Assembly (NCBI GenBank): GCA_902616615.1
Contig: CACMTN010000003.1
Location: forward strand, 53,708-117,707
From: an uncultured SAR116 cluster alpha proteobacterium
GTDB lineage: Bacteria > Pseudomonadota > Alphaproteobacteria > Puniceispirillales > Marisalimonadaceae
DNA: 64,000 nt
Direction of reading: 5' to 3'
Shown here: positions 17,903 to 19,246 of the stretch, one piece after another
Layout: each line of letters starts with the position of its first letter
How positions within the stretch are numbered: position 1 is the stretch's first letter
The notes under the pieces: generated by a model
Database searches by the model: none
Told to the model about the DNA's origin: nothing
Seen by the model: only the letters and a program-made list of their open reading frames with translations
Position numbers and translations under genes: made by a program

Positions 17903-18838
17903 TTAATTGATGCAATACATCCAATTTTTTTCATTGATAACTTCACCTATGAATAAAAATGGCTCATTTCCAGTTTTTTTTGCATAATCTATTAAATCAG
18001 CACTTTTATCTGATTTTATAGTTAATCTATTATTTTTAAAAAATCCTTTTGTTCCAGCTAGCACTACAAATTCAGATGACAAATCTACTAAACCACTTTT
18101 TGGTTGTTTTGGAACCATTATCTTCTCGTATTTGTATCCCCATGAATTCAAGCAATTTATAGAAATATCAATATATTTGGCCTTAACTTTCATTAAGCAT
18201 TGTTGAAAAATATTTTTATTTATGCCTTCTAAACTACGAATAGGGTAATCAAAATTAATATTCCCTTTCAAGGAAAGATTTTTCCACTTATTAATCTGAT
18301 TATCTGATGGAAAAATAATAATTGTATTAAAATGTAATTTTGATTTTACTAAAATTTCTAGCTTAATTTCTGAATTAAATTTTGGATGATCTAAAACTTT
18401 AGTCTCAATATTTCGAGAATTAAGTTTTTGTTTATGTAATTTTATAATTTTATTTATATCATTTCTTTGAGATGACGCTGTTACAATTTTGTTTTTAAAA
18501 AGTTTAACAAACTTTTTACCTCCCTCTTCTTCTCCGTAGTATTTATGATACTGATTGTCTAGAACACTTAATTGATATAATGAGTCAAAAGACGGTGGAG
18601 CTAATTCTCTTATTTCCATTATATTATTGTTAGAACCAATTGAATGCCATTTTGAAAGAGTGCCTCTTGACATCCCAAGTTTTTGAGCTAACTCAACTTG
18701 ACTATTTTCTAACTGATTCAACGCATTCGTAATTGCTTCAGCCATTTCAAATATACTATTTTTGACTTTATTTTTGGCTAAATTAATTTTTATTACATGA
18801 TCATCAAGTGACATTATATTTGAAATTTGTGTGTTCAT
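17903..18838 (-). CDS. HTH protein fused to a degenerate MT-A70-like methyltransferase domain
   Basis: Residues ~43-66 form an HTH (QVELAQKLGMSRGTLSKW). Residues ~80-130 (LAPPSFDSLYQLSVLD ... KIVTASSQRND) resemble the ParB-like linker found upstream of bacterial MT-A70 enzymes. From ~155 the order of elements follows MT-A70: FNTIIIFPSD at the place of the catalytic DPPW, YPIRSLEGI for YPTMSxEEI, SWGYKYEK, then SEFVVLAGTKGFF for HELLLxATRG. The DPPW residues are lost, so methylation is unlikely; it may be a DNA-binding regulator. The MT-A70 relation is my own motif reading, not a search result. Confidence 0.6.
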   Translation of the reverse strand: MNTQISNIMSLDDHVIKINLAKNKVKNSIFEMAEAITNALNQLENSQVELAQKLGMSRGTLSKWHSIGSNNNIMEIRELAPPSFDSLYQLSVLDNQYHKYYGEEEGGKKFVKLFKNKIVTASSQRNDINKIIKLHKQKLNSRNIETKVLDHPKFNSEIKLEILVKSKLHFNTIIIFPSDNQINKWKNLSLKGNINFDYPIRSLEGINKNIFQQCLMKVKAKYIDISINCLNSWGYKYEKIMVPKQPKSGLVDLSSEFVVLAGTKGFFKNNRLTIKSDKSADLIDYAKKTGNEPFLFIGEVINEKNWMYCIN

Positions 18839-18877: not shown

Positions 18878-19246
18878 CTAAAATTTTTTGCCACCTTTCT
18901 GAAGGCGGTTAGCAAGTTTATGATCCGCTCGTGATTTATTGTACTCTAATTTTTCGTAAATTGTTTCACCTAAATTAAAATTCCTCGATTCAGCTAGGTC
19001 AAATATTCTAATGACAGCGTCAGCAAGTTCAACCTCCATCATTGATTTGTGTTTTAAATGATTATCCATTAATCCTTTTCTTGCACCTTCCATAGCCTCG
19101 CTAATTTCTGAATGTATTAAACATAATAATTCTCCGATATTTCTATCTTTTTTTCTACCTTCAGCATCATGCCACCAACCGCCCTTAACAGCTGCTTTAT
19201 GGCAATCTTTTGCACAGCCATTTACCCCCAAGATATTTTTATTCAT
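18878..19246 (-). CDS. MazG-like nucleotide pyrophosphohydrolase
   Basis: The 122-residue all-alpha protein has the metal-binding pattern IHSEISEAMEGARKG followed about 20 residues later by EVELADAVIRIFDLAE, i.e. the ExxE...ExxD arrangement of MazG/dUTPase-type NTP pyrophosphatases. An N-terminal KGGWWHDAEGR is typical of phage-type and small bacterial versions. It would hydrolyse a nucleoside triphosphate, possibly house-cleaning or (p)ppGpp-related. It lies 39 bases upstream of the HTH/MT-A70-like gene on the same strand. Confidence 0.82.
   Translation of the reverse strand: MNKNILGVNGCAKDCHKAAVKGGWWHDAEGRKKDRNIGELLCLIHSEISEAMEGARKGLMDNHLKHKSMMEVELADAVIRIFDLAESRNFNLGETIYEKLEYNKSRADHKLANRLQKGGKKF

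Follow-up and report, generated by a model that had tools for sequence, protein, structure and literature searches.

A helix-turn-helix protein with a degenerate MT-A70-like domain in SAR116 bacteria, and its relatives in predicted DNA-carboxymethylation cassettes

The window analysed here is a stretch of 64,000 nucleotides from the 1.73 Mb genome of a SAR116 (Puniceispirillales) bacterium. Its minus strand carries an intact open reading frame, from an ATG at 18838 to a stop codon at 17903, which encodes a protein of 311 aa and is surrounded by azlC, an azlD-like gene and genes for a 122-aa protein, AtuA and a DUF4387 protein (Table 1). Orthologues are known at 83–98% identity; 29 of the 40 genomes of the genus have one, as does a single genome from a sister genus, and a more distant one occurs in a complete genome from another family. 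In this SAR116 genus the gene belongs to the chromosomal core. It stands beside the gene for the 122-aa protein in all 29 genus genomes where that marker gene is assembled, and neither gene is present in the other 11 of the 40, most of which are incomplete assemblies. In the sister genus the order is azlC, azlD, 122-aa gene, one small inserted gene and HTH gene. No relatives of the protein were found in the phages or plasmids searched, nor outside the order among 385 genomes of the class. Beyond its own genome, 399 genomes of the phylum gave HTH-level matches only, and the one examined, L245, has 233 aa and may have the linker in common with the window protein.

For the 122-aa neighbour no family was found in Pfam, NCBIfam or the PDB; a MazG assignment was rejected as no family supports it, and by eye the protein has a likeness to small NTP pyrophosphohydrolases. 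One orthologue of the window gene (L004, G037:C4:157432-158364) has a single internal in-frame TAA, attributable to a sequencing error or to a recent nonsense mutation.

Table 1. Coordinates of the window gene, its features and related loci (positions without a locus prefix are those of the window)
Feature	Position	Strand	Evidence
HTH + pseudo-MT-A70 protein, 311 aa	17903..18838	-	Intact ORF; 29/40 genus genomes; overall dN/dS 0.19
Helix-turn-helix, ParB/XRE-like, residues 39-68, recognition helix GMSRGTLSKWHSIG	18635..18724	-	Weak HTH_3, HTH_ParB and TIGR00180 matches; alignment
ParB-like helical linker, ~residues 81-143, 'P.SF..LY.LS.L...' and further helices	18409..18598	-	phrog_4715 match of paralogue; AlphaFold2 helices 84-141
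Degenerate MT-A70 domain, residues 160-311	17906..18361	-	Foldseek; hhalign P=4.5e-7; dN/dS 0.18
FPSD in place of the DPPW catalytic tetrad, residues 176-179	18302..18313	-	Alignments
YPIRSLEGI, residues 198-206, counterpart of MT-A70 Y(P)xMSLxxI	18221..18247	-	Direct reading and alignments
SWGYKY, residues 232-237, counterpart of MT-A70 AWGFxY	18128..18145	-	HMM alignment; hhalign
SEFVVLAGTKGFF, residues 255-267, counterpart of xELLLxGxRGxx	18038..18076	-	hhalign
PFLFIGEVINEKNWMYCIN, counterpart of PYLELFARxxRxGWxxWGNE, SAM-pocket residues lost	17906..17962	-	Joint alignment and hhalign
Conserved 122-aa protein, directly upstream of window gene, 39 bp gap	18878..19246	-	29/29 co-occurrence and adjacency
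Island paralogue of HTH/pseudo-MT-A70	L058:8526-9488		Own-genome island
Predicted CmoA-HTH/pseudoMT-A70-CmoYX module	L058:6428-10417		Own genome, G000:C1
Predicted CmoA-HTH/pseudoMT-A70-C5-MTase module	L057:6607-9377		G077, another SAR116 genome

The anatomy of the window protein, an HTH joined to a degenerate MT-A70 domain, is well supported. For the HTH proposed in the initial annotation, the window protein gives weak but consistent matches to HTH_3 (E=3e-4) and HTH_ParB (E=0.0056), below the Pfam cut-offs, and a TIGR00180 match (E=0.0025) that is likewise below cut-off. A sequence search of the PDB with the same protein gave HTH-level matches only. Support for the HTH and for a ParB-like linker comes from a paralogue on an island of the same genome, residues 31-173 of which match the ParB-like phrog_4715 (E=1.9e-6). 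A ParBc (ParB CTPase) domain was not matched in the window protein, whose N-terminus extends only ~30 residues ahead of the HTH. The first 80 residues, which hold the HTH, have a dN/dS of 0.12.

In the C-terminal half, each of the motifs quoted in the initial annotation in MT-A70 order (YPxxSLExI, SWGYKY and SEFVVLAGTKGFF) is present where it had been placed, and FPSD was found by alignment at the exact position of the DPPW tetrad. A further collinear match at the C-terminus had been missed, in which S..K..DLI..A....PFLFIGEV....W.YC pairs with HSRKPDE..ERIE...GPYLELFAR...GW..WG of genuine MT-A70 proteins. DPPW is absent from every family member found, be it chromosomal, from the island of the same genome, from the second SAR116 genome (G077) or from the viral contig L163. 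The tetrad reads FPSD, IPSD, VPSN, VPLE or IPSL in chromosomal copies, and IPTP in the island paralogue, QPSS in G077 and DLQK in the viral-contig homologues. The SAM-pocket motifs HSRKP (HSxKP), ELFAR (ELFxR) and WGNE/Q are lost too in the joint alignment. What is kept is the structural skeleton (LxxWGF/Y, GxxG, PxL and W), and P177, Q181 and W185 are conserved among the SAR116 members. To judge from these residues, catalysis and SAM binding are probably absent from the family. A dN/dS of 0.18 on the degenerate domain indicates purifying selection, which argues for a maintained pseudoenzyme rather than a decaying enzyme.

Profile libraries were blind to this domain. Nothing significant was returned by Pfam, NCBIfam or PHROG, and PF05063 gave no match to the window protein at E<=10; three independent routes were therefore taken to the question of MT-A70 membership. 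An AlphaFold2 model of the window protein, built from an alignment of 18 homologues (pLDDT 72), was compared with the PDB using Foldseek, and the 50 matches listed were all MTA1, METTL14 or METTL3 complexes (best E=6.9e-5, probability 1.00). For a homologue of 26% identity, modelled likewise (pLDDT 78), the 50 PDB matches listed were all MTA1/METTL3 complexes (best E=1.2e-7), and a search of BFVD retrieved phage IME4/MT-A70 proteins. The models are of moderate confidence (pLDDT 72-78, pTM below 0.5), and with modest TM-scores of 0.3-0.6 the details of packing are uncertain. This check by structure prediction, which had been suggested beforehand, thus yielded an MT-A70-type Rossmann domain, with matches listed all of the MTA1/METTL3/METTL14 type. 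Neither of the two outcomes that the initial annotation named as refuting its reading, a model lacking the Rossmann methyltransferase fold or best matches to an unrelated family, was observed. Using hhalign, the C-terminal 162 residues aligned to 15 alphaproteobacterial MT-A70 proteins with P=6.9e-6, against 0.04 to 0.71 for reversed, column-shuffled and N-terminal controls. The widest and more diverse alignment gave P=4.5e-7 (probability 92.6%, 150 columns). When a family HMM was run against 2304 viral ORFs, the best matches outside the family were genuine MT-A70 proteins, at E values of only 0.1-0.34. On predicted structure and profile comparison, the C-terminal domain can safely be placed in the MT-A70 family.

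Compared with the adenine-N6 methyltransferases of that family (PF05063; bacterial and phage enzymes, METTL3 and MTA1), the window protein agrees in the order of its motifs and in the predicted Rossmann fold across all of the C-terminal 150 residues, but lacks DPPW, HSxKP/ELFxR and a PF05063 match and has an HTH fused at its N-terminus. Pseudo-MT-A70 proteins are known in eukaryotes, METTL14 being one. Another is MTA9 (PMC9174199). Both likewise have a catalytically degenerate MT-A70 domain under selection, and METTL14 chains are among the Foldseek matches listed for the window model; however, METTL14 and MTA9 need an active MT-A70 partner, whereas here an HTH is fused and a partner, if there is one, would be either a C5-cytosine enzyme or simply DNA. 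PF05063 was matched in none of the 40 genus genomes, some of which are incomplete assemblies, and in 38 of 289 genomes of the class, which served as positive control. Fusions of ParB, HTH and MT-A70 domains have been surveyed in bacteria, archaea and phages (PMC12704722). With such fusions, for example L071 with its DPPW, the window protein shares an HTH and linker, here weakly ParB-like, followed by an MT-A70 domain, but it has no ParB CTPase domain and its MT-A70 domain is dead. The proposed descent from a DNA methyltransferase with a ParB-like linker and HTH fits; L071 is an intact ParB-HTH-MT-A70 fusion from the same class. The literature searched, which leaves out most subscription papers and is weak evidence of absence, reports no HTH-fused pseudo-MT-A70 protein, bacterial or other.

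The sole paralogue in the same genome has 36% identity to the window protein. The island on which it lies adjoins tRNA-Met and carries a tyrosine integrase and a serine recombinase, and the paralogue occupies the middle of a tight operon, between a CmoA-like enzyme and a fusion of an asparagine-synthetase-like protein with a C5-cytosine methyltransferase (CmoY and CmoX in one protein of 713 aa). A comparable module occurs in G077, and in a further genome (G116) the assembly ends inside a 57%-identical CmoA. Two initial scans of viral contigs with narrow alignments found no relatives; those in IMG/VR were reached through CmoX and through a broader alignment. They lie on contigs L163, L243 and L244 in the order serine recombinase, CmoA, HTH/pseudo-MT-A70 and fused ligase/C5-methyltransferase, with differing cargo downstream. 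In all operons seen, the HTH/pseudo-MT-A70 gene overlaps CmoX.

A study of December 2025 showed that Synechococcus phage S-B43 forms 5-carboxymethylcytosine by means of CmoA, a carboxy-SAM synthase, CmoX, a C5-carboxymethyltransferase, and CmoY, an asparagine-synthetase-like amide ligase (PMC12783734). The key Arg350 of its CmoX stands at the place of M.HhaI Asn304 and contacts carboxy-SAM (PMC12783734). The SAR116 island CmoA is 37% identical to that of S-B43 and matches TIGR00740 at E=1.6e-29 (1e-26 to 1e-30 across the element CmoA proteins). The island CmoX is 41% identical to the biochemically proven S-B43 enzyme (E=8e-85) and has ERIGRMVPP with the diagnostic Arg, and the island CmoY has 28.5% identity to its counterpart (E=1e-19). 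ERxGRMV, with Arg at the M.HhaI N304 place, is found in all three element lineages. The SAR116 CmoA, CmoX and CmoY proteins are thus predicted from sequence to form 5-carboxymethylcytosine. The element-borne paralogues, then, are set inside CmoA-Cmo(Y)X operons homologous to the S-B43 system, in bacterial islands and not only in phages, whereas the window copy has no CmoA or CmoX adjoining it among the neighbouring genes identified. No carboxymethylcytosine modules in SAR116 are reported in the same literature, with its same weakness as evidence of absence.

Among the order's 136 genomes, just two have close CmoX homologues, and these are the two with an operonic HTH copy; such homologues are missing from 28 of the 29 members of the genus in which the chromosomal gene occurs. 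Only L163 among 80 phage CmoX loci carries an HTH/pseudo-MT-A70 protein. In 12 of these 80 loci an intact MT-A70 gene is directly upstream of CmoX, and CmoY was detected in none of the 12. In these 12, the free-standing MT-A70 gene has DPPW and directly precedes CmoX-CmoA; they are the IMG/VR loci L179, L205, L208, L214, L216, L217, L228, L231, L232, L234, L239 and L242. The S-B43 study names no candidate for an adenine-N6 carboxymethyltransferase next to CmoA (PMC12783734). A ParBc protein often adjoins the phage CmoA-CmoX-CmoY genes (PMC12783734), and the ParB proteins of the PaBG and Mcat8 modules were considered as a missing link and rejected, their sequences having no MT-A70-like region.

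In the phylogeny the chromosomal copies form one clade (UFBoot 99) and the element copies are deeply diverged. A single chromosomal clade amid such diversity suggests that domestication occurred once; its direction rests on this diversity, as the tree is unrooted. Since the closest relatives sit in mobile gene sets predicted to write 5-carboxymethylcytosine, the window gene is probably a domesticated regulator from a carboxymethylation element. DNA binding, regulation and the direction of domestication are all inferred from these comparisons. On balance we favour, by a modest degree, the combined reading of a DNA-binding pseudo-methyltransferase that regulates carboxymethylation elements and was domesticated once on the chromosome. 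The protein would comprise a ParB/XRE-type HTH and helical linker fused to an MT-A70 domain without DPPW or SAM pocket, and its family would belong to mobile cassettes, as the gene between CmoA and Cmo(Y)X in a tightly packed operon. In these, CmoA would make carboxy-SAM, CmoX would put the carboxymethyl group on cytosine C5 and CmoY would amidate it. The cassette protein may bind DNA to regulate the operon, restraining or timing a modification that uses up SAM and prephenate; the dead MT-A70 domain would then be a scaffold for dimerisation or DNA contact. By analogy, the simplest reading is a regulator like the controller proteins of restriction-modification systems. The window copy would be the chromosomal descendant, having kept the recognition helix and not the enzymes. 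The recognition helices of the window protein and island paralogue are nearly identical (GMSRGTLSKWHSIG and GMSKGTLSKWVSIG), which suggests a shared class of sites. The role of sensor or regulator offered in the initial annotation divides here: a regulator is plausible, while a sensor of SAM finds no support in the sequence, where the SAM-contacting motifs are lost too.

Candidate operators for such a regulator may be found upstream of CmoA. In L163 a perfect 22-bp palindrome, ATAATTTCTTATAAGAAATTAT (L163:1041-1062), lies 20 bp before the CmoA start; L243 likewise has a perfect 22-bp palindrome 20 bp upstream of CmoA, and L244 keeps its core. On the island of the window's own genome (L058), a palindrome with 9-bp arms, AATAATTTAACTGAATTATT, overlaps the -10 element of a promoter-like TTGACA-17-AATAAT site. 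The palindromes are AT-rich and differ in sequence. No comparable palindrome turned up in the G077 operon or the chromosomal gap, nor was an operator found that the window gene and the island operon share, and the evidence for operators is weak.

The window copy may exemplify how a gene of a modification element is exapted as a core gene. With the operonic copies, the recently described carboxymethylcytosine system gains one more conserved gene, complete CmoA-CmoX modules are placed on islands of abundant ocean bacteria, and the role of a DNA-binding accessory protein in such modules becomes directly testable. The tie between a pseudo-MT-A70 protein and so recent a DNA modification was unexpected.

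Regulation by itself leaves the retention of the MT-A70 fold unexplained, and the conserved residues of the domain could instead serve a protein partner. A bolder proposal, which we regard as possible though doubtful, is that of a new bacterial class of DNA-binding pseudo-MT-A70 proteins: a dedicated non-catalytic part of cellular, not only phage, carboxymethylation machines, which would direct or gate CmoX as METTL14 does for METTL3, with one copy domesticated as a core SAR116 DNA-binding protein. About as unlikely is a plain non-catalytic subunit of the modification enzyme that would bind CmoX in the elements and deliver it to DNA or tune its specificity, by analogy with METTL14 for METTL3 and MTA9 for MTA1, the chromosomal copy having switched partner. 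Pseudo-MT-A70 scaffolds are a known kind, as in METTL14 and MTA9 (PMC9174199), the overlap with CmoX in every operon would suit a subunit, and the 12 phage loci tie MT-A70 proteins repeatedly to CmoX. However, the CmoX of S-B43 works unaided by any such protein (PMC12783734), a search of the genus found no MT-A70 partner, and a CmoX subunit cannot be the whole story because CmoX is missing from almost every genome that has the chromosomal gene.

It is improbable that the domesticated copy provides immunity, repressing the CmoA-CmoX operon of incoming elements in the manner of a prophage repressor that blocks superinfection. The near-identical recognition helices and the retention of the gene across the genus without the enzymes would suit this, but both copies are present in the window's own genome, so immunity would be incomplete, and no operator common to the two loci was found. 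That the protein is still an active methyltransferase, or one that senses a ligand, through an unusual active site is very unlikely: the L163 lineage keeps Asp at the first tetrad position and P177, Q181 and W185 are conserved, but no lineage retains DPPW or the SAM motifs, and there is free variation at the tetrad (F/I/V/Q/D-P/L-S/T/L/Q-x). That the resemblance is coincidental and the domain an unrelated alpha/beta fold, as the lack of any PF05063 score and the weak HMMER matches might hint, can be set aside as the least probable of all, given the collinear profile match and Foldseek matches listed for two models that are all MT-A70.

CmoA-like genes in four other SAR116 genomes were considered as CmoX modules and rejected, three being in sugar/polysaccharide-type clusters (L130:7062-7790, L131:5554-6264 and L132:7064-7807) and the fourth having a nearby C5-methyltransferase with an ordinary GNAVP. 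Asparagine-synthase-like genes lie close to the CmoA-like genes in L130 and L131, and the three clusters possibly use carboxy-SAM chemistry in surface glycans. In L244, type I restriction-modification genes (hsdM, a specificity-like gene and hsdR; L244:4765-10725) directly follow the CmoA-pseudoMT-A70-CmoYX cassette, where L163 and L243 have other cargo. For L163:6046-7071, a possible restriction nuclease, no relative was found in the PDB. The island-like region of the G077 operon holds what appears by eye to be a fusion of an HNH-nuclease-like region with a HIT-like domain (L057:11920-12909). Between the integrase and the cargo of the island in the window's own genome lies an Rfam Methylobacterium-1 sRNA (RF01712, 61.5 bits; L058:3739-3842).
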